Below, piece by piece: positions 7,292 through 29,662 of a stretch of DNA of 42,813 bases. The stretch comes from a virus. The stretch lies in IMG/VR virus record IMGVR_UViG_3300037961_004277, positions 1,217-44,029 of that record, one strand, 5' to 3'. The position numbers and the translations under genes are program-made. Every line of letters starts with the position of its first letter. Position 1 is the first letter of the stretch. The notes under the pieces are model-generated. The model did no database searches. It was not told the DNA's origin and saw only the letters and a list, made by a program, of their open reading frames with translations.

Positions 7292-7521
7292 TGCCTACTT
7301 ACCCTGTAAAAAATACTAAAACTGGAGAGACTAAAGAACTCTCTATGTCCATGACAGAATATGATCAGTGGAGAAAAGACAACCCTGATTGGGACAAAGA
7401 CTGGATGGCGGGTGTCGGGGGTACTACATATGGTACACCTAAAATGGATGACGGATTCAAAGAAGTCATGTCCAAAGTCCAGAAAGCACACCCTAGAGCA
7501 AACTTGAGTCGATTCACCTAA
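7291..7521 (+). CDS. Conserved cyanophage hypothetical protein (MPTYPVKNTKTGE type)
   Basis: 76 residues. The start MPTYPVKNTKTGETKELSM resembles the first strands of FmdB-like zinc-ribbon proteins, but there are no cysteines, so no metal site is left. DNPDWDKDW and a C-terminal KVQKAHP segment are typical of small cyanophage homologues. Coupled to thyX by a one-base overlap and three bases before phoH. Function unknown. Confidence 0.65.
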   Translation: MPTYPVKNTKTGETKELSMSMTEYDQWRKDNPDWDKDWMAGVGGTTYGTPKMDDGFKEVMSKVQKAHPRANLSRFT

Positions 7522-7524
7522 ACT

Positions 7525-8286
7525 ATGGCAAGAGCAAGGAAAAAAACTGGCACCCCGCAAACTTATCCTAACGGTATGTCCAAGAAGCAAATGAAACGTA
7601 AGAAACCTATTGATTCTTCATACATGGTTCCGATCAAACCTTTGACGGACAATCAAACGCTTGCGTTTGAAAATTATGAGATGGGTAAGAACTTGCTTCT
7701 ACATGGTGCAGCAGGTACAGGTAAAACTTTTATCACTTTGTACCTTGCTTTACAAGAGGTACTTGACGAAAACACACCTTATGATAAGATATACATTGTA
7801 AGGTCACTCGTGCCGACTCGTGAGATTGGTTTCCTACCAGGTGACCATGAAGATAAGTCTGCCTTGTATCAAATTCCTTACAAGAATATGGTCAGGTATA
7901 TGTTTAGTATGCCTGATGATAATTCATTTGACATGCTTTATGACAACCTCAGAGCACAAGAAACTATTTCATTTTGGTCTACTTCTTTTATCCGTGGAGT
8001 TACTCTTGACAATGCCATTGTTATTGTCGATGAGTTCAGTAATCTGAACTTCCATGAACTAGACTCTATGATCACCCGTATCGGTGAAGATTCTAAGATC
8101 ATGTTCTGTGGTGATATCACTCAGTCCGATCTCGTAAAAGAGAATGACAAGACAGGGGTATCTGATTTCATTCGTATCTTACAATCAATGCAGGAATTTT
8201 CTTGTATTGAATTTGGTATCGATGATATCGTTCGTTCTGGTCTTGTTAAGTCTTATCTAATCTCAAAATATAATCTTGGTTTCTGA
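7525..8286 (+). CDS. phoH: PhoH-like ATPase
   Basis: 253 residues. Walker A GAAGTGKT lies at residues 61-68, Walker B IVIVDEFSN near 165-173, and CGDITQSDL near 195-203 is the sensor region of PhoH. The first 30 residues are basic. PhoH proteins are P-loop ATPases related to superfamily 1 helicases. They are widespread in cyanophages, with a disputed role in RNA metabolism or phosphate stress. No Pho box is evident immediately upstream, and the gene is embedded in the replication operon, so independent phosphate control is not supported here. Confidence 0.93.
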   Translation: MARARKKTGTPQTYPNGMSKKQMKRKKPIDSSYMVPIKPLTDNQTLAFENYEMGKNLLLHGAAGTGKTFITLYLALQEVLDENTPYDKIYIVRSLVPTREIGFLPGDHEDKSALYQIPYKNMVRYMFSMPDDNSFDMLYDNLRAQETISFWSTSFIRGVTLDNAIVIVDEFSNLNFHELDSMITRIGEDSKIMFCGDITQSDLVKENDKTGVSDFIRILQSMQEFSCIEFGIDDIVRSGLVKSYLISKYNLGF

Positions 8287-12788: not shown

Positions 12789-13748
12789 TTAGTAACCTCT
12801 TACGACATCTGCTTGACCGATGAATCTGGTCTCCAAGAATGTTAAACTCAACGTCACAGCAGGAACTTGCATCATCGGTGCCCCATCTCCTTCGCTGCTT
12901 GTGCCCATACTGGTTTCTGCAAATGCATTATATTGACCATCTGGAGTGTAGTTTACATTTACACCTGCACAGACAGAAGTAAAAATCTTAAAATGCAACT
13001 CATTATCATCACTAAATTGCCTCTTCTCTGGGTCCATGCGAACAAACTTGATATCAAATTTGTCAGGTACTTCCATAAAACGATTAGGACTGTCGTTGAT
13101 GATAGGAGTAGCACCTCTCTTGAAATAATCAATAATCATCTTATTTTCTCTTGCTTCCTCAGGACTTCTACTAAACAGTTTGAAGTTAAACGCATGAGAT
13201 CTAAATGTCATATTATTGAACAGTTGTTCAGTATATGGGTTAAATACCTTACCACCAGCAAGTTGTGCAATAGTGTTAGCATTAATATTTCCACCAATAC
13301 CCAACATTTGACTAGCAGCATTAGCAAATTGTGCTTTTGCTGAATTAATCACTTCTGGAAGAGCACCAGTTGCTGCGTCTTGCAGTGTGCTGACAATTGA
13401 ATCAAGATCCGCTTGCATCCCTTCTCCACCTGCTTCCTTTAGTGTAATACCACTAATACCTGCCATTGCCATACCACCAACACCTAAATTTTGTGTTGTA
13501 TATGCTGGATTATATGAAGTTGCTAATTGTGGTGGCATAGCAAGATATACCGCTGTGGAATTATAATCAAAGGATACATCGTTGCCAGGTAAATTTAACT
13601 GATTATAATTACCAGATCCACCATCTTTTTTGTATTTAATTCTTTTACGACGAAACATGACATAATCAATTGCCTGCGTCGGTCCATCGCCCACCTTATT
13701 TCCGATGACGGGAGGTTCTAATGGATATCTAAGTGTTGACGCTGCCAT
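12789..13748 (-). CDS. 48: Baseplate tail-tube cap gp48
   Basis: 319 residues from the ATG at 13748 (MAASTLRYPLEPPVIGNKVG). An in-frame ATG 99 bases upstream would overlap gene 4 and both late promoters, so I reject it. The C-terminal region (FNFKLFSRSPEEARENKMII, VPDKFDIKF and VTLSLTFLETRFI) is the tail-tube-like fold of gp48/gp54. It caps the baseplate hub and, with gp54, nucleates the tail tube. Transcribed leftwards with gene 53. Confidence 0.9.
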   Translation of the reverse strand: MAASTLRYPLEPPVIGNKVGDGPTQAIDYVMFRRKRIKYKKDGGSGNYNQLNLPGNDVSFDYNSTAVYLAMPPQLATSYNPAYTTQNLGVGGMAMAGISGITLKEAGGEGMQADLDSIVSTLQDAATGALPEVINSAKAQFANAASQMLGIGGNINANTIAQLAGGKVFNPYTEQLFNNMTFRSHAFNFKLFSRSPEEARENKMIIDYFKRGATPIINDSPNRFMEVPDKFDIKFVRMDPEKRQFSDDNELHFKIFTSVCAGVNVNYTPDGQYNAFAETSMGTSSEGDGAPMMQVPAVTLSLTFLETRFIGQADVVRGY

Positions 13749-23044: not shown

Positions 23045-23052
23045 TATAAATA
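23045..23052 (+). promoter_or_regulatory. Late promoter TATAAATA upstream of cp12
   Basis: Perfect late consensus 25 bases before the cp12 start, giving cp12 a second, late promoter. Confidence 0.7.
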
Positions 23053-23077: not shown

Positions 23078-23305
23078 ATGGAATCCATCGAAAAGCACAT
23101 CGAACAGGACAAGCAGATTCTTCAAGATCCTACTACAAATCCACAAATGCGTCGTCACGTTGAAGAAGAACTTCGCGAGTTGGAAGAATATGCAGATCAT
23201 CATAAGAAAGAGATTGAGGCAGGAGATCATCACGATCCAACATACCTAGAGTTGTATTGCGATCAGAACCCTTCTGAACCTGAATGTCTTGTATATGACG
23301 ATTGA
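23078..23305 (+). CDS. cp12: CP12-like Calvin-cycle inhibitor
   Basis: 75 residues. The C-terminus LELYCDQNPSEPECLVYDD is the CP12 signature, with the C-terminal Cys pair (eight-residue spacing) and the terminal VYDD that docks into GAPDH. The N-terminal half is a charged helix without cysteines, so the N-terminal disulfide of plant CP12 is absent, as in many short cyanobacterial forms. CP12 binds GAPDH and phosphoribulokinase and shuts down carbon fixation. Phage copies are thought to redirect NADPH and carbon to nucleotide synthesis through the pentose phosphate pathway. It has both a sigma70-like and a late promoter and overlaps cpeT by 11 bases. Confidence 0.9.
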   Translation: MESIEKHIEQDKQILQDPTTNPQMRRHVEEELRELEEYADHHKKEIEAGDHHDPTYLELYCDQNPSEPECLVYDD

Positions 23306-23747
23306 AGAGTATTTCTTAGGACACTGGACGAATAGATATCAAGCACAATCTGCCCCTCATCTTTATTCTTCCACTGAAATAGAGTGGAGGAAAATTGAGG
23401 GTGGTTTGCATTCAAAAAACTATTATAGAAGAGACGGACCAACTAAACCGTATCGAGAGAGATATCACAAAATTGTTGAGGTGTCGGATACGGAATTTAT
23501 CGTTGAGAATTATGATCTCAACTGGACAAGATCAGAAAACTGTGATATGATATTCACATTCGATGGCACTGCATGGAACGGTCAATTGATCGGTGATAAA
23601 TGCACTGGTGCCAAAGGATATCGTATTGTATCGGAGTATCACCTCTATGGAGACAAACTACATAGTAAAGATCAAGGGTATGATGACGAAGGTAATATGA
23701 AGTGGGGATCAGAAGTAACTTACAAGTATATTAGAATGGGCGAATAG
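23295..23747 (+). CDS. cpeT: CpeT-like phycobiliprotein lyase
   Basis: 150 residues from ATG 23295; a TTG six bases earlier is also in frame. LGHWTNRYQAQSAPHLYSST and EIEWRKI near the N-terminus, RERYHKIVEV and C.MIF.FDG.AW.G are typical of the CpeT/CpcT lipocalin-like family. Host CpeT attaches phycoerythrobilin to phycoerythrin. Phage versions, common in cyanomyoviruses, may bind bilins and alter light-harvesting during infection. The last codons and the TAG stop lie inside tRNA-Val. Confidence 0.88.
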   Translation: MTIEEYFLGHWTNRYQAQSAPHLYSSTEIEWRKIEGGLHSKNYYRRDGPTKPYRERYHKIVEVSDTEFIVENYDLNWTRSENCDMIFTFDGTAWNGQLIGDKCTGAKGYRIVSEYHLYGDKLHSKDQGYDDEGNMKWGSEVTYKYIRMGE

Positions 23748-23809
23748 CTCAGCGGTAGAGCTACTCGTTTACACCGAGTCGGTCGGGGGTTCGATCCCCT
23801 CTTCGCCCA
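23738..23809 (+). tRNA. tRNA-Val (anticodon UAC)
   Basis: 72 nt. Acceptor GGGCGAA/TTCGCCC, D stem GCTC/GAGC, anticodon stem ACTCG/CGAGT with loop TTTACAC, and T arm GGGG-TTCGATC-CCCT. CCA is not encoded. Its first ten bases are the end of cpeT; the stop TAG is tRNA positions 8-10. Confidence 0.95.
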
Positions 23810-23823
23810 TTGTCACTTTTATT

Positions 23824-23991
23824 ATGGCAAAACCTACTAAAGAAGAGATTATCGATCTCTTATATAATAACTATTCTGATTATTACACCCTACCCCATTA
23901 TGGTTTGATACCTGATTGGTATATACGATACTGGGAATTGCACAATATTGTTCTTGATTATCTGGAAGGAGACTCCGATGAAACTGCGTAA
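23824..23991 (+). CDS. Small acidic hypothetical protein
   Basis: 55 residues, starting MAKPTKEEIIDLLYNN 14 bases after tRNA-Val. Tyr-rich (NNYSDYYTLPHYG) and Trp-containing middle, acidic end. It overlaps the next gene by 14 bases. No Shine-Dalgarno is obvious. Not recognised; small ORFs in this place occur in cyanophages. Confidence 0.5.
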   Translation: MAKPTKEEIIDLLYNNYSDYYTLPHYGLIPDWYIRYWELHNIVLDYLEGDSDETA

Positions 23992-24652
23992 TGCTATTTT
24001 GGCAGGTTTAATGTTAAGTATGGCACATGGAGTGCAGGCAGGTGAAGATAAGATCACCAAAGGATACAATTCTAATGACTCCATGGGATGCATGATGCTT
24101 CGAGAGTGTAAGAAAGATGTTGATGAAGTATATTCTCTTCTTGATATCTCTTCACAGTATCCTAATACTGAAGAATTTACACCACAGGCAGAAGAGTTTA
24201 ATAAACTGTTGATGACACTGAATCAAATTGGTGTTAAAGTATACCTTGCTGATCAACGATATTTTCCTATTGGGCACCGTGGTGTCTATCATACCGTCAG
24301 TAACAATTTCTATCTAAATAAAGATTGGATGGGAGATCCTGCTGTCCTGATGCAACTTATGCGTCATGAAGGATGGCACGCTGCACAGGATTGTATGGCA
24401 GGTACTATCGATAATAGTATGATCGCTATCATCAAACCCGAAGAAGATGTGCCTATGTTGTGGCGTGTCATGGCGGAACGCACTTATCCTAAAGGTGCAG
24501 TGCCATGGGAAGCAGAAGCACAATGGGCAGGTCGTACAAAGGGTATGACCCAAGCAGCACTTGAAGCATGTGCTACTGGTGCTATGTGGGAGGTGTATGA
24601 TCCTACACCCTTAACTCGTAAATGGTTAGAACAGAATGGTTATCTTCCGTAA
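23978..24652 (+). CDS. Secreted HEGWH metalloprotease-like protein
   Basis: 224 residues from ATG 23978, which has an AAGGAGA ribosome site and yields a proper signal peptide (MKLRNAILAGLMLSMAHGVQA, cleavage after residue 21). An upstream in-frame ATG would put ten residues before the signal. RHEGWHAAQD places a zincin HExxH motif at residues 130-134. A third ligand may be E178 or E180 in PWEAEAQW. Cys38, Cys44, Cys139 and Cys198 could form disulfides. It probably acts in the periplasm or outside the cell, on host envelope or released proteins; substrate unknown. Not a standard virion protease. Confidence 0.65.
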   Translation: MKLRNAILAGLMLSMAHGVQAGEDKITKGYNSNDSMGCMMLRECKKDVDEVYSLLDISSQYPNTEEFTPQAEEFNKLLMTLNQIGVKVYLADQRYFPIGHRGVYHTVSNNFYLNKDWMGDPAVLMQLMRHEGWHAAQDCMAGTIDNSMIAIIKPEEDVPMLWRVMAERTYPKGAVPWEAEAQWAGRTKGMTQAALEACATGAMWEVYDPTPLTRKWLEQNGYLP

Positions 24653-25109
24653 AAATCGCTATCAATTAGCGAAGCAAATAACATGGCATGATGTTATTCG
24701 CAAAATGGAGAATGAATTTGAACTTGATACATGTAGTGTTCATGGATTAGTTAATCTTCATGGACATACAATATCAATACCAACTATTGTCCTTCATAAT
24801 GAAAATCAAACTAAGACTGTATTTGATGCAGTAAAAGAGATTGAGAAAGAGTGGACAACAACCAGTTGTCATTTGTATACATCTTTTGCTAAAGGTGCTG
24901 CAACATTTGGTCGTCACAATGATGAGGTAAATGTTTTAATCGTCGGTGCTATTGGAAAGGTATCATATAAGTTTGATGATGGTACAATACATATTGTAGA
25001 ACCAGGCGATGCTTTGTATATACCTGCTGGTGTATATCATGATCCCGATGTTCTCTCTGCTAGAGTAACTTTGAGTATCTCTACACAACAAACCCCTGAA
25101 ATATTATGA
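24636..25109 (+). CDS. Cupin / JmjC-like putative Fe(II) dioxygenase
   Basis: 157 residues. A double-stranded beta-helix is suggested by TFGRHNDEVNVLIVGAIGK, VEPGDALYIPAGVYHDPD and RVTLSIS. HxD (HND, residues ~89-91) and the later YH give the 2-His-1-acid metal triad of cupin dioxygenases. It overlaps the metalloprotease-like gene by 17 bases and the next oxygenase gene by four. Substrate unknown; protein or small-molecule hydroxylation is possible. Confidence 0.65.
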   Translation: MVIFRKNRYQLAKQITWHDVIRKMENEFELDTCSVHGLVNLHGHTISIPTIVLHNENQTKTVFDAVKEIEKEWTTTSCHLYTSFAKGAATFGRHNDEVNVLIVGAIGKVSYKFDDGTIHIVEPGDALYIPAGVYHDPDVLSARVTLSISTQQTPEIL

Positions 25110-25714
25110 GTAACGCAAGAGATTATCTCTTCAAGATTCCTTTTAGACAGTATAGTCTAGATAACTGGCAGGCAAAGAAGGAAGCAATTATGAAAGCACT
25201 TCCTTTGGATAAGTATACCGACTTTTATGATAATGGTGGTATCCCTGAATATATGCCTGTAATCTCAGATTGCATTGATACTGAGATGAGAGATTTCTCT
25301 CAAACTTATCCTTGTCCTGTAATGATCACTGCACTTTGGTTTGAATTATCAAAACCAGGCGATTATCATGGACCACATAATCACGGTGCTACAGGATACT
25401 CTGCTATTCTGTACGTTGACTATGATGCAGGAGAACATGAAGCAACTAAGTTTCATTGTCCTTTCTTAGAAGCTGCTACGGGTGAAAATCTGAAGTATCA
25501 ACCTGTTGTTAGAGAGGGAGATCTAATTGTATTCCCATCTAATATTTTACATGAGGCACCCATAAATACAGGTAAGAAAAATAGATTGATTGTATCTTTC
25601 AACATCATGGGTGAAGATGTTGCTAGAAGTTATCAATGTGGTCTCAAATCATCTCCTTTAACGAGACGTGACTTTGACCTATATAATTCTGGTTTCGGCA
25701 ACTCCGATAAATAG
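25106..25714 (+). CDS. Putative 2OG-Fe(II) oxygenase
   Basis: 202 residues. GDYHGPHNHGATGYSAILYVDYDAG, EGDLIVFPSNILHEAP and NRLIVSFNI reproduce the metal/2-oxoglutarate pattern of the putative 2OG-Fe(II) oxygenase family: first His in HxxHxH, a distal His in ILHEAP, and an Arg binding 2-oxoglutarate. The usual HxD aspartate is replaced by HNH, so ligation may differ. Starts at the cupin gene stop (ATGA). The late box for gene 5 overlaps its stop. Confidence 0.7.
   Translation: MSNARDYLFKIPFRQYSLDNWQAKKEAIMKALPLDKYTDFYDNGGIPEYMPVISDCIDTEMRDFSQTYPCPVMITALWFELSKPGDYHGPHNHGATGYSAILYVDYDAGEHEATKFHCPFLEAATGENLKYQPVVREGDLIVFPSNILHEAPINTGKKNRLIVSFNIMGEDVARSYQCGLKSSPLTRRDFDLYNSGFGNSDK
25706..25713 (+). 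promoter_or_regulatory. Late promoter GATAAATA for gene 5
   Basis: Late consensus box 20 bases before gene 5, overlapping the end of the upstream oxygenase gene. Confidence 0.7.
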
Positions 25715-25733
25715 TCAAAATACAAATTGATAG

Positions 25734-28283
25734 ATGCAAACTATTGACGGTATTATTAATGAACCTACAGTAAATTTCGTCGGTAAAGACGGATTTTTCT
25801 GGTGGGTTGGTGAGGTTGAAGATAACGAAGACCCGATGAGATTGGGTCGCGTCAAAGTGCGTGTTCTTGGATACTACACTAATGTTCGTGGTAGCACTAC
25901 GAATGATTTGCCAACGGATTATCTTCCTTGGGCAACTGTTCTTCAGCATACTTGTCAACCTGGTAATGATGGACAAGGTGAGAGTTCTGGTCAATTACAA
26001 CCAGGCGCTATTGTTATGGGTTTCTTCATGGATGGAGAAGCAGCACAGATGCCTATCGTATTAGGTGTCATGCGTGTTAAGAAGTCTGCAGACACTCAGA
26101 AAGAAAAAGTATTTGCCTTCACAGGTGAAGCAATGGAACCTGGCATTGCTCCCAACGTTGCAACAGTTCATCCGATGAACCCTAATGCAACTATGGCAAC
26201 TACACAAGAAGAGGGTTTCTACAGACCAAAACAAGATAACACCGTTTCATTACCTGGTAAAGATCAGGATGGTAATCCCAATGAAACTGCTGGTGCTGGA
26301 TCTCCTGCTAATGTAGGAAACTTATTGAATGGTAGTGGTGGTAATCCCAACAAACCTAGACAACCAGAAAAACCAATTCCTGCTGCTAATGGTGTTGCTG
26401 GACCATGGAAGACACTAGAGTATGAGTTATCATATCTCTTAGAAGATCTTGCTGACCATGCTGGATCACTAATTAAAGCAGAAGATGGTGACTTCCTTGA
26501 TATTGTCACAGGTAAACTTGTTAGTGCAAAGGCATTGACTGCAAAGATTCAGAACTTCTTGAGTGCGGTATTTGCTCAGGTTGTATCTGCGATGCGACAA
26601 TCTTTAGCAAACCTTGCAGAACAGTTAGAACTTGTCAATATTCTTGGTGGTGCAACTGGTGCTCCTTTCGTGGTCTTCACGGTAATTCAACAGGCAGTTA
26701 CGACGATCCTTAAATCTCTCTGTATGATCGACAATCAACTGTTGGGTTTCATTGCAGATCCTGTTGGTTCAATCGTAGGTTTACTTGAAGGTGTACTCGA
26801 CGGTTTGATTGATAAAGCAACCTTTGTTATGCAGGGTGTACAAACTGCTATCGATAGAGTTATTTGTCAGGTTCAAGGTCTTCTCGATACAGTTCTTGGT
26901 GTGGTTGATACTGTAAAAGGTATTGTCGATGGTGTTGGTAAAGCAAAAGAAATCATCGATGCATGGCAAGCAGGTAGTGAAATCTTTGAGGCAGGTACAG
27001 ACCTATTCACAAAGGGTATTACTTCAATCACTGGTTTGATTGCTATGTTCATTAAGTTCATTGGCAGTGGTTGTGGTCGTAGTGCTGATGGTGGTAAAGA
27101 TACTGTAGGTTGGTATCCTTTATTTGGTGTTACTCATTGTACTCCTGAAGAATTAGAAGAAATTAATAAGATACGAGGTAAATCTAGAGGTGACTGTGGA
27201 GGAGACAGTAGAGCAGGTGGTCTTTTAGATAGTATCTTTAATGATGCAGATCCTTATCTGACTGCTGCAAAAACTTTCTTAGATGGATCTTATGAGATGT
27301 TTGTCGGTACACCTGGCAGACAAGCAAGTATTCATAAAAATGCCAGTGGTACTACTCATACATCTGTTAAATTAAATCAGAGTTTGTATGCAGAGTATGT
27401 TGCTCGTAAAAAAATTCGTGAAGAAAGTCCAAATCTGACACCTGAACAGATTGAAGATAAGGTAAAAAAATATACTAAGACACAAAATAATCAAAAAGGT
27501 GATGATGGTGCTTTAGTTGCAGATCATACATCATATGCTGGTAACCGTACAGAGGAGACACATGGTGACAATTGTTCTACCGTAGATGGTGATGTTGTCA
27601 GAAACATTAAAGGTGATTACTTCCTGAAAGTTACTGGAGATTGTCACATTGAAGTTGGTGGTGGTTTCTTCTTAGGTGCTGAAGGTGCTCCTAAAGTTGT
27701 TGATGGCAACGGCGAAAAGAAAAACGATAAGGTACAGAAGCACACCATTAGATTTGGTTCTGATGTTGACATAAACACAGTTGGTGCTAAGTTTGAATTG
27801 CAGGGTGCTGAAGCAAATATTGCATCTACATCTACTAAGATTACTGGTAGTATGTACGAAAACTCTGCATCACAACAGAGTAGAAGTGCTGCAGAACAAA
27901 TCTTTAGTGGTGATAACTCTATTGAGATTGTTACACCTCACTTAGTTGAGATGATCAATACACCCCCATCACCTATTCCTAAAGCACTTACTGGTATTCG
28001 TAGATTTGTTGGTGGATCTGTAGAGACAGTTATGACACCAGGATTATCAGCTGATGCTATTCCTAGATATACTATTGTCAATCCACTTGGTCCTTATTCT
28101 TTGACTTGTGGTGCAACAGGATATAACTGTAACGTTGCTACTGGAATGTTTAATGTCAACGTTGGTGCTGGAGCTATCGTCCTGAATGCTGCTCTCGCTG
28201 CAACCGTCAAGTGTGGTCTAGGCATGGTCTTGTCTGCTGAAGGTATCGTCATAATCGACGGTAAATCGATTTTCCTCAATTGA
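25734..28283 (+). CDS. 5: Baseplate hub spike gp5, lacking lysozyme
   Basis: 849 residues. The N-terminal OB fold (residues ~14-120) is clear: FFWWVGEVEDNEDPMRLGRVKVRVLGYY, LPWATVLQ, GAIVMGFFMDG, PIVLGVM. No lysozyme motif follows. Instead residues ~215-440 form long hydrophobic helices (VGSIVGLLEGVLDGLIDKAT, VQGLLDTVLGVVDTVKGIVD). The C-terminus from ~600 is a spike-type beta helix: GDVVRNIKGDYFLKVTGDC, HTIRFGSDVDINTVGAKFEL, ending VIIDGKSIFLN. In T4 gp5 carries a lysozyme between these parts; here that job appears to lie with the gene at 18915. The helical insert could be a spacer or membrane-active element. Confidence 0.88.
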   Translation: MQTIDGIINEPTVNFVGKDGFFWWVGEVEDNEDPMRLGRVKVRVLGYYTNVRGSTTNDLPTDYLPWATVLQHTCQPGNDGQGESSGQLQPGAIVMGFFMDGEAAQMPIVLGVMRVKKSADTQKEKVFAFTGEAMEPGIAPNVATVHPMNPNATMATTQEEGFYRPKQDNTVSLPGKDQDGNPNETAGAGSPANVGNLLNGSGGNPNKPRQPEKPIPAANGVAGPWKTLEYELSYLLEDLADHAGSLIKAEDGDFLDIVTGKLVSAKALTAKIQNFLSAVFAQVVSAMRQSLANLAEQLELVNILGGATGAPFVVFTVIQQAVTTILKSLCMIDNQLLGFIADPVGSIVGLLEGVLDGLIDKATFVMQGVQTAIDRVICQVQGLLDTVLGVVDTVKGIVDGVGKAKEIIDAWQAGSEIFEAGTDLFTKGITSITGLIAMFIKFIGSGCGRSADGGKDTVGWYPLFGVTHCTPEELEEINKIRGKSRGDCGGDSRAGGLLDSIFNDADPYLTAAKTFLDGSYEMFVGTPGRQASIHKNASGTTHTSVKLNQSLYAEYVARKKIREESPNLTPEQIEDKVKKYTKTQNNQKGDDGALVADHTSYAGNRTEETHGDNCSTVDGDVVRNIKGDYFLKVTGDCHIEVGGGFFLGAEGAPKVVDGNGEKKNDKVQKHTIRFGSDVDINTVGAKFELQGAEANIASTSTKITGSMYENSASQQSRSAAEQIFSGDNSIEIVTPHLVEMINTPPSPIPKALTGIRRFVGGSVETVMTPGLSADAIPRYTIVNPLGPYSLTCGATGYNCNVATGMFNVNVGAGAIVLNAALAATVKCGLGMVLSAEGIVIIDGKSIFLN

Positions 28284-28284
28284 C

Positions 28285-28313
28285 TTGACACGCTCAGGGC
28301 GGTCTGCTATACT
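28285..28313 (+). promoter_or_regulatory. Sigma70 promoter after gene 5
   Basis: TTGACA at 28285-28290, 17-base spacer, TATACT at 28308-28313, two bases after the gene 5 stop. It should drive the small ORFs, tRNA-Leu and the downstream oxygenase gene. Confidence 0.75.
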
Positions 28314-28336
28314 GCATAAGTAAAGACACAGACCAC

Positions 28337-28534
28337 ATGCCCAATACAGAACTCGCTCACGTTTTCGTTAATTTCTCCAAACGAAAAATCAAAATCGTAG
28401 ACAACGAAGGATACGACAAAGAAGTTCAGTGGAAATGGGACTTCGAGGGTGCTGCTGGATTTGCAGAGACTATCTCTGAACTCGGTCACATTCTTGATCC
28501 CGAAATGGTAACTTATCTCTTTGCAGAACAATGA
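28337..28534 (+). CDS. Small conserved hypothetical protein
   Basis: 65 residues, first gene after the 28285 promoter. VFVNFSKRKIKIVDNEGYDKEV is strand-like; a helix (FAETISELGHIL) follows. Soluble, slightly acidic. No domain recognised. It overlaps the next gene by four bases (ATGA). Confidence 0.6.
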   Translation: MPNTELAHVFVNFSKRKIKIVDNEGYDKEVQWKWDFEGAAGFAETISELGHILDPEMVTYLFAEQ

Positions 28535-28752
28535 TCGGACCTATTGGTATTACACTTCGTCAAGCAGAAGATCACTTTGATTTCATCTTGGATCTTACAG
28601 AAACTCAAAGAGTTTGCTGGAAAATTACTCGCCCTGACGGAAAATCTGCTATGATGGTTCCTGTCAATGAAGTTCCTCCTGTTCCTGAAGAAATTCAGAC
28701 TCAGGTAGAAGAATTTCAAAAACAATTTTTAGAGGCAGCGAATGAGACCTGA
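28531..28752 (+). CDS. Small conserved hypothetical protein
   Basis: 73 residues. IGPIGITLRQAEDHFDFILDLTE then RVCWKITRPDGKSAMM suggests a small alpha/beta fold; the C-terminus is an acidic helix (EEIQTQVEEFQKQFLEAANE). Coupled to both neighbours by overlapping start/stop. Function unknown; expression from a sigma70-like promoter suggests an early role. Confidence 0.6.
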   Translation: MIGPIGITLRQAEDHFDFILDLTETQRVCWKITRPDGKSAMMVPVNEVPPVPEEIQTQVEEFQKQFLEAANET

Positions 28753-28909
28753 AACTCGTCATGCAATGGAAATGCTTTGGTCAGCAAAATGGAACTTGCC
28801 AACTGCAGCAAAACATGCTAATCTGACCAACAAGGAGATGAAAATCACCTTCAACGAATACTGTTCATTTCATCCACCCACCCATAATATTGGGAGTGTG
28901 GCGGAATAG
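28742..28909 (+). CDS. Small helical protein ending inside tRNA-Leu
   Basis: 55 residues from ATG 28742, overlapping the preceding gene by 11 bases. AMEMLWSAKWNLPTAAKHANL followed by TNKEMKITFNEYC resembles a short helix-turn-helix-like unit. The final 18 bases, with the TAG stop, are tRNA-Leu positions 1-18. Function unknown. Confidence 0.6.
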   Translation: MRPETRHAMEMLWSAKWNLPTAAKHANLTNKEMKITFNEYCSFHPPTHNIGSVAE

Positions 28910-28975
28910 GTAGACGCACCAGACTTAAAATCTGTTGATTGTAAAATCGTAAGGGTTCAAGTCCCTTCACTCCTA
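28892..28975 (+). tRNA. tRNA-Leu (anticodon UAA)
   Basis: 84 nt class II tRNA. Acceptor GGGAGTG/CACTCCT (one G-U), anticodon stem CAGA/TCTG with loop CTTAAAA, a long variable arm (GATTGTAAAATC) and T arm AGGG-TTCAAGT-CCCT. CCA is not encoded. Starts within the upstream ORF and ends two bases before the next ATG. Confidence 0.93.
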
Positions 28976-28977
28976 CT

Positions 28978-29556
28978 ATGTCTTGTCATCTAATTTATCC
29001 TATCAGTTTTTATTGGCACTTCAGAGCACCGAACGCAGAAGAATTTATTGAAGCGGTGGAGAATTGCCATGAACCAATTGACAACGATCAATTTCGTTGG
29101 GGTAAAGAATGTGTCATTGACAGAGTTCCTTTGAAATGGGAATCATGGATGTCTATAGTAACTCCGTCTCTTCATGAAGTTGCTAATCAGATGAACAGAA
29201 TCTTCGGGTTCGTTATGTATGATCCTTGGATCAATTATTACAAGAGAGGATATTTTCAAGAAGTACACGATCATGCTATGCAAGACCTCGCCATGGTATT
29301 TTTTGCCAATGATGGTGAGGGATTTTCAAAGTTTTGCTTCACAGATAGATATAGCACGTCTCTCAGAACTGAAGTAAAAAAATTGGTCGGATACCAAAAT
29401 ATCCGTGGTATAAACTACAAAGCAGGTGATGTCATTATCTTTCCTGGTCACCTTATGCACATGGTTACACCACACCAAAGCGATGTTACTAGAAAAACAT
29501 TCGCATGTAATATTCAACTCAAGGACGTATGTAAACCCGAAGTACCGCCAAATTAG
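28978..29556 (+). CDS. 2OG-Fe(II) oxygenase-like protein
   Basis: 192 residues. WINYYKRGYFQEVHDHAMQD places the first metal His (HDH); GDVIIFPGHLMHMVTPH gives the distal His; RKTFACNI gives the 2-oxoglutarate Arg. It belongs to the broad putative 2OG oxygenase group common in cyanomyoviruses. The ATG follows the tRNA-Leu 3' end by two bases and there is no Shine-Dalgarno. The stop TAG lies inside tRNA-Thr. Substrate unknown. Confidence 0.65.
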   Translation: MSCHLIYPISFYWHFRAPNAEEFIEAVENCHEPIDNDQFRWGKECVIDRVPLKWESWMSIVTPSLHEVANQMNRIFGFVMYDPWINYYKRGYFQEVHDHAMQDLAMVFFANDGEGFSKFCFTDRYSTSLRTEVKKLVGYQNIRGINYKAGDVIIFPGHLMHMVTPHQSDVTRKTFACNIQLKDVCKPEVPPN

Positions 29557-29620
29557 CTCAGTTGGATAGAGCAACGGTTTTGTAAACCGTAGGTCGTCGG
29601 TTCAAGTCCGACATTTGGCT
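29547..29620 (+). tRNA. tRNA-Thr (anticodon UGU)
   Basis: 74 nt. Acceptor GCCAAAT/ATTTGGC, D stem GCTC/GAGC, anticodon stem ACGGT/ACCGT with loop TTTGTAA, T arm GTCGG-TTCAAGT-CCGAC. CCA not encoded. The first ten bases are the end of the upstream oxygenase gene, whose TAG is tRNA positions 8-10. Confidence 0.95.
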
Positions 29621-29622
29621 TA

Positions 29623-29662
29623 GGGGGAGTATTAAAGATCTGCATTTAGAAGCAGCGCCCCC
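29623..29662 (+). promoter_or_regulatory. Stem-loop after tRNA-Thr
   Basis: GGGGG (29623-29627) can pair with CCCCC (29658-29662), with inner CTGC/GCAG pairing (29640-29643, 29652-29655). No T run follows, so it is more likely a processing or leader structure for the next gene than a terminator. Confidence 0.45.

Follow-up and report, generated by a model that had tools for sequence, protein, structure and literature searches.

How does a protein gene come to end inside a transfer RNA (tRNA) gene, and does the stop codon shared in this way have a function? The question is raised by a stretch of viral DNA of 42,813 nucleotides (nt; positions 1,217 to 44,029 of IMG/VR record IMGVR_UViG_3300037961_004277), here called the window, which belongs to a marine T4-like cyanophage with S-SSM5 (Kyanoviridae) among its relatives. 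ARAGORN and Rfam detect exactly three tRNAs in the window, all on the plus strand. Each of them overlaps the protein gene upstream and supplies its stop codon, as had been noticed in an initial annotation made from the sequence alone, of which every coordinate checked proved correct. The genes and their shared stop codons are as follows.

23295-23747, plus strand: cpeT, encoding a CpeT/CpcT-like lyase of 150 amino acids (PF06206, E = 4.8e-15; phrog_488)
23738-23809, plus strand: tRNA-Val(UAC) (ARAGORN, Rfam; the ARAGORN call is one base longer at either end)
23745-23747, plus strand: TAG, stop codon of cpeT and U8-A9-G10 of tRNA-Val, read from the DNA
28742-28909, plus strand: gene of family phrog_1308 (T4-GC 160), 55 amino acids (E = 3.5e-32)
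28892-28975, plus strand: tRNA-Leu(UAA) (ARAGORN, Rfam)
28907-28909, plus strand: TAG, stop codon of the phrog_1308 gene, positions 16-18 in the D loop of tRNA-Leu (A at position 17, C in most relatives)
28978-29556, plus strand: 2OG-Fe(II) oxygenase gene, 192 amino acids (PF13759, 2OG-FeII_Oxy_5, E = 3.1e-11; phrog_81)
29547-29620, plus strand: tRNA-Thr(UGU) (ARAGORN, Rfam)
29554-29556, plus strand: TAG, stop codon of the oxygenase gene and U8-A9-G10 of tRNA-Thr, read from the DNA

All three upstream genes belong to known families with homologues, and family searches of the window genes revealed no nuclease gene at any of the three junctions. The layout probably arose at a recombination hot spot close to gp5 of T4-like cyanophages, where tRNA genes settled directly against the 3′ ends of protein genes or within them, the start of the tRNA replacing the stop of the gene. 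The geometry of the junctions, their recurrence, the exchange of tRNAs, the arrival of a cassette and an insertion with duplication can all be read directly in the genomes, and their comparison lends good support to an insertion-driven architecture in a compact genome.

In the proposed mechanism, a tRNA or a cassette of tRNAs would insert flush at the end of a gene and remove the old stop codon, after which the ribosome would continue through the tRNA as far as its first stop in frame. In one frame of three, this stop would be the triplet U8-R9-R10 (R, purine), read as TAG or TAA, with the addition of two or three tRNA-encoded residues; in the other two frames it would lie deeper, at positions 19-23, or at position 52 in tRNA-Leu. 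The triplet U8-R9-R10 is nearly invariant and is needed for tRNA folding, so that a stop codon located there cannot easily mutate. Gene and tRNA would share a transcript, ribonuclease P (RNase P) would cut at their boundary, and short overlaps would be kept as compact and nearly harmless.

Exchange of tRNAs behind cpeT

A tRNA lies near 67 of the 84 distinct cpeT ends collected, and 17 have none nearby. The stop codon lies wholly within the tRNA in 61 of the 67, and before or at the tRNA edge in the remaining six; for cpeT, the overlap thus prevails among relatives instead of being absent from most of them. Positions 8-10 hold the stop in 45 of these 61 cases, the others having it at position 4, 5, 19, 21 or 24. 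The codon formed at 8-10 is TAG, or TAA if base 10 is A, or TGA in tRNA-Leu. Behind cpeT stands tRNA-Val, -Thr, -Gly, -Asp or -Leu, and the species switches at least seven times on a quick cpeT tree, from which the last eight residues were excluded. Homologues without a tRNA (for example in S-TIM4 and metaG-MbCM1) have a stop of their own within a few residues of the same end, which indicates that the tRNA occupies the place of the cpeT stop.

One such exchange can be followed base by base. The order in ACG-2014b is cpeT, tRNA-Thr, tRNA-Asn and tRNA-Val. ACG-2014a has only tRNA-Val behind cpeT, with a sequence that matches the third tRNA of ACG-2014b at 72/72 bases; the tRNA ending cpeT was therefore replaced when a cassette arrived. 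The tRNA-Thr/tRNA-Asn cassette is identical over 151 of 151 bases in ACG-2014b, ACG-2014a and S-MbCM25, three phage genera in which it occupies different places, and it stands behind cpeT only in ACG-2014b (loci of the survey carry L numbers).

L045 (ACG-2014b), 7447-7597: tRNA-Thr/tRNA-Asn cassette
L051 (ACG-2014a), 12959-13109: the same cassette
L309 (S-MbCM25), 1501-1651: the same cassette

Identity between ACG-2014b and ACG-2014a starts exactly at base 1 of tRNA-Thr, with zero shared bases upstream, and the incoming tRNA-Thr gives cpeT a TAG at 8-10 without change of frame. As judged from its sequence, the 151-base block is an instance of precise mobility of a tRNA cassette. Swaps of this kind behind a single gene constitute an evolutionary record of tRNA movement in phages.

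A second case is provided by S-RIM50, in which an HNH endonuclease gene is inserted between cpeT and tRNA-Gly (L096, 448-846); in its close relative S-RIM8, cpeT is joined straight to tRNA-Gly. The 12-nt tRNA start GCGGATGTAGTT occurs twice in S-RIM50, at the end of cpeT and at the true start of tRNA-Gly, where it ends the HNH gene, and through this duplication both genes keep their stops. Homing-nuclease genes at tRNA junctions are found in S-RIM50 and other relatives, and by analogy with T4 SegB homing nucleases are candidate movers of cassettes in some phages. The duplicated tRNA start was also considered as a general signature of insertion and was rejected, as it occurs at 1 of 98 junctions and likewise once in the control.

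Such insertions recall the site-specific integration of mobile elements that use a tRNA end as attachment site and would have built the arrangement in this way. HNH genes do terminate in tRNAs of five isotypes, but integration of the classical type uses and rebuilds the 3′ half of the tRNA, whereas the junction here is at the tRNA 5′ end, and repeats of the tRNA start are confined to a single junction in 98. Integrases were not seen among the upstream families, although no search aimed at them was made. Integration of this type is a highly improbable origin of the layout.

Chance expectation and the origin of the stop codon

The occurrence of three overlaps for three tRNAs had been taken to suggest a selected or insertion-driven architecture. 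By itself it says little, since overlap as such is not rare: in the same regions of four related phages, 30 of 49 adjacent pairs of coding sequences (CDS) overlap, which gives three of three a probability of about 0.23 by chance. This figure favors an explanation by plain compact packing and chance, in which phage genes overlap constantly and tRNAs hold stop codons in every frame. What goes beyond chance is the kind and origin of the stop, as the tRNA imposes the stop codon. All three overlapping window genes use TAG, compared with only three of the 54 non-overlapping genes of the same regions (31 TGA, 20 TAA and 3 TAG).

The 282 loci surveyed contain 1072 non-redundant tRNAs, of which 265 head an array and have an upstream open reading frame (ORF) of at least 90 amino acids ending between -150 and +75. 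The stop falls exactly at tRNA position 8 in 73 of these 265, and at no other position in more than 11; two IMG/VR pattern scans that supplied loci required TAR (R, A or G) or TAG at positions 8-10 of tRNA-Val or tRNA-Thr. When each pairing of gene family and tRNA species in a given frame is counted once, the position-8 frame accounts for 22 of 32 types (binomial P = 4.5e-5 against an expected third), a count made by hand, with a P value that is optimistic and inflated by the relatedness of the sequences. The position-8 stop is common to unrelated upstream families, namely 2OG oxygenases, HNH nucleases and proteins of 61, 67 and 88 amino acids, and is provided to them by tRNAs specific for Asn, Ala, Arg, Pro, Gly, Val and Thr. 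A tRNA can thus offer, in its most conserved bases, a ready-made, mutation-proof stop codon.

Packing and chance would leave this sharp excess across gene families and tRNA species unaccounted for, and the cassette and HNH insertions point to a specific history. As a full explanation they are rather unlikely, although they differ from the settling of tRNA genes at gene ends mainly in emphasis. The insertion-driven part of the initial proposal is therefore borne out, by ACG-2014b, S-RIM50 and the seven or more tRNA swaps behind cpeT and not by the count of three. Selection, its other part, draws weak support from the excess of the position-8 frame (22 of 32, one third being expected), but this over-representation is what would be expected if longer C-terminal tails were selected against.

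Several points weigh against the settling of tRNA genes at gene ends. The TAR and TAG patterns enrich the survey in tRNAs with a stop at 8-10, even though the upstream frame was left free; the cpeT tree gives no root from which to tell gains of a tRNA behind the gene from losses; and duplication of the tRNA start is seen at just one junction out of the 98.

Possible shared transcripts and cleavage by RNase P

The consequences of the layout for expression depend on whether gene and tRNA are transcribed together. Two features upstream of cpeT are relevant here.

23045-23052, plus strand: putative T4-type late promoter motif TATAAATA, upstream of the CP12-cpeT-tRNA-Val unit
23078-23305, plus strand: CP12-like ORF, overlapping the start of cpeT by 11 nt; the orthologous position in S-SSM5 is annotated CP12

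The late-promoter motif is weak evidence alone, with four matches in the window against 2.8 expected. It is absent between cpeT and tRNA-Val and directly before any window tRNA; the match nearest to tRNA-Val is the one at 23045, before CP12. A motif scan for independent tRNA promoters found 28 sigma-70-like sites where 23 would be expected, a background level. Both results make a shared transcript of gene and tRNA plausible. In addition, of 91 junctions only 1 has G as the coding base just 5′ of the tRNA, whereas 17% would be expected from the codon position; this suggests tRNA 5′ processing at the boundary, G being likewise avoided in tRNA leaders generally. At the S-RIM50 insertion (L096), the TATAAATA motif also lies in between.

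The initial annotation had argued that cleavage at the tRNA 5′ end would remove the stop codon and leave non-stop messages, so that tRNA maturation and protein synthesis compete. Seen as a selected regulatory conflict, each transcript would yield a tRNA or else a protein terminated in the normal way, with rescue of stalled ribosomes by transfer-messenger RNA (tmRNA) and with CpeT dosage tied to tRNA supply. The geometry makes loss of the stop unavoidable if the transcript is shared and RNase P cuts before translation ends, and the overlap behind cpeT has survived at least seven tRNA swaps. The strongest hint comes from L185 4894 and L252 (minus strand), where the cpeT homologue ends in the position-8 frame at a TGA formed by bases 8-10 of tRNA-Leu. 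This TGA replaces the usual TGG, and an A10-T25 pair compensates for the change. However, the same TGA is present in tRNA-Leu(UAA) of L186 and L206, where no such overlap exists.

The phrog_1308 gene differs from cpeT. At ten additional loci its reading frame extends 54 nt into tRNA-Leu, as far as a stop at 52-54; in the window lineage, A in place of C at D-loop position 17 creates an earlier TAG, at position 16. The D-loop variant is also found in L042, L203 and L207, where no gene uses it, so that the phrog_1308 stop in the window looks incidental; selection on the D-loop TAG was rejected on this ground, as the variant is present without need. In many genera (L036, L041, L044 and others), part of the phrog_1308 C-terminus is encoded by the tRNA-Leu gene.

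A selected conflict is further at odds with the variation of the stop frame between relatives, with the 17 cpeT ends devoid of a tRNA, with cyanophage tRNAs located elsewhere, which mostly do not overlap, and with gene-gene overlaps, which are equally common. On balance it is quite unlikely. Given a shared transcript, a non-stop message after RNase P cleavage is a consequence of the geometry and is not evidence of a regulatory role. Very doubtful, too, is a proposal in which the joint transcript would give rise to either the tRNA or a CpeT or oxygenase with its regular end, while RNase P would serve as an off-switch, host tmRNA would clear stalled ribosomes and the phage would retain the coupling through repeated tRNA exchange. 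The layout nevertheless offers a clean test case for a messenger whose stop codon is destroyed by maturation of the tRNA it contains.

Related layouts and neighboring elements

Overlap is mostly absent from the tRNA-Arg of the second cyanophage locus, from the S-PM2 arrays and, among the phages compared outside cyanophages (T4, KVP40 and T5), from KVP40 and T4. The shared-stop layout is chiefly a feature of the gp5-linked hot spot. In the tRNA region of T5, hegC, hegD (HNH) and T5.069 similarly end inside tRNA-Ser, a pseudo-tRNA-Gln and tRNA-Asn, but their stops lie at 12, 21 and 22 instead of 8-10, the overlaps are longer, and no recurrence across tRNA species behind one gene, as seen for cyanophage cpeT, is known there.

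In mitochondria, tRNA excision sets the 3′ end of messengers, some of which share bases with the tRNA. The cyanophage junctions resemble this punctuation in that tRNA excision would likewise set the boundary of the message. Polyadenylation completes a U or UA stop in mitochondria, whereas the TAG, TAA or TGA of cyanophages is complete in the DNA, is part of the tRNA body and would disappear from the message upon cleavage. Punctuation of the mitochondrial type was ruled out, as these stops need no A-tailing. Another parallel is found in the short stop/start overlaps of phage genes (ATGA, 11 nt), which are likewise compact, share few bases and are common in these regions; here, however, the downstream partner is a structural RNA, and its conserved bases determine the stop of the upstream gene. 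Among the gene overlaps of compact phage genomes, the layout is a variant that recurs.

T4 SegB is a free-standing nuclease within the tRNA region that promotes the inheritance and spread of that region (PMC2988022). It differs from the present cases in being a GIY-YIG enzyme associated with an intergenic region, and the segB-tRNA pair of T4 does not overlap. Sullivan et al. 2010 (PMC3037559) deal with the same locus: they report the gp5 hot spot of cyanophages with its tRNAs, as well as tRNAs at non-syntenic regions, suggest tRNAs as recombination substrates and, in the passages searched, do not describe shared stop codons. In the open-access literature searched for tRNA/CDS overlap, shared stops and RNase P or non-stop messages in phages, the layout is undescribed.

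The surroundings of gp5 in the window, from tRNA-Val to tRNA-Leu (23948-28283), hold variable cargo that differs among relatives (a phrog_591 protein, a cupin and a 2OG oxygenase). Downstream of tRNA-Thr, a conserved 40-nt hairpin element, GGGGGAGUAUUAAAGAUCUGCAUUUAGAAGCAGCGCCCCC, occupies 29623-29662; it has no match in Rfam and recurs in 13 IMG/VR contigs and several isolates. Its inner motif lies 17 nt after tRNA-Thr in the window, and elsewhere the element is located 8-13 nt before tRNA-Thr or tRNA-Asn. It may represent a small, stable RNA or an element for processing between tRNAs.

The overlaps also have a bearing on annotation, as several records leave such tRNAs or the overlapping genes unannotated. 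The GenBank entries of S-MbCM100 (L030), ACG-2014b (L045) and ACG-2014a (L051) seem devoid of tRNAs in this region, the four detected by ARAGORN being unannotated, and the tRNA-Pro annotated in S-H25 (L038 7438) is identified by ARAGORN as tRNA-Gly(UCC).

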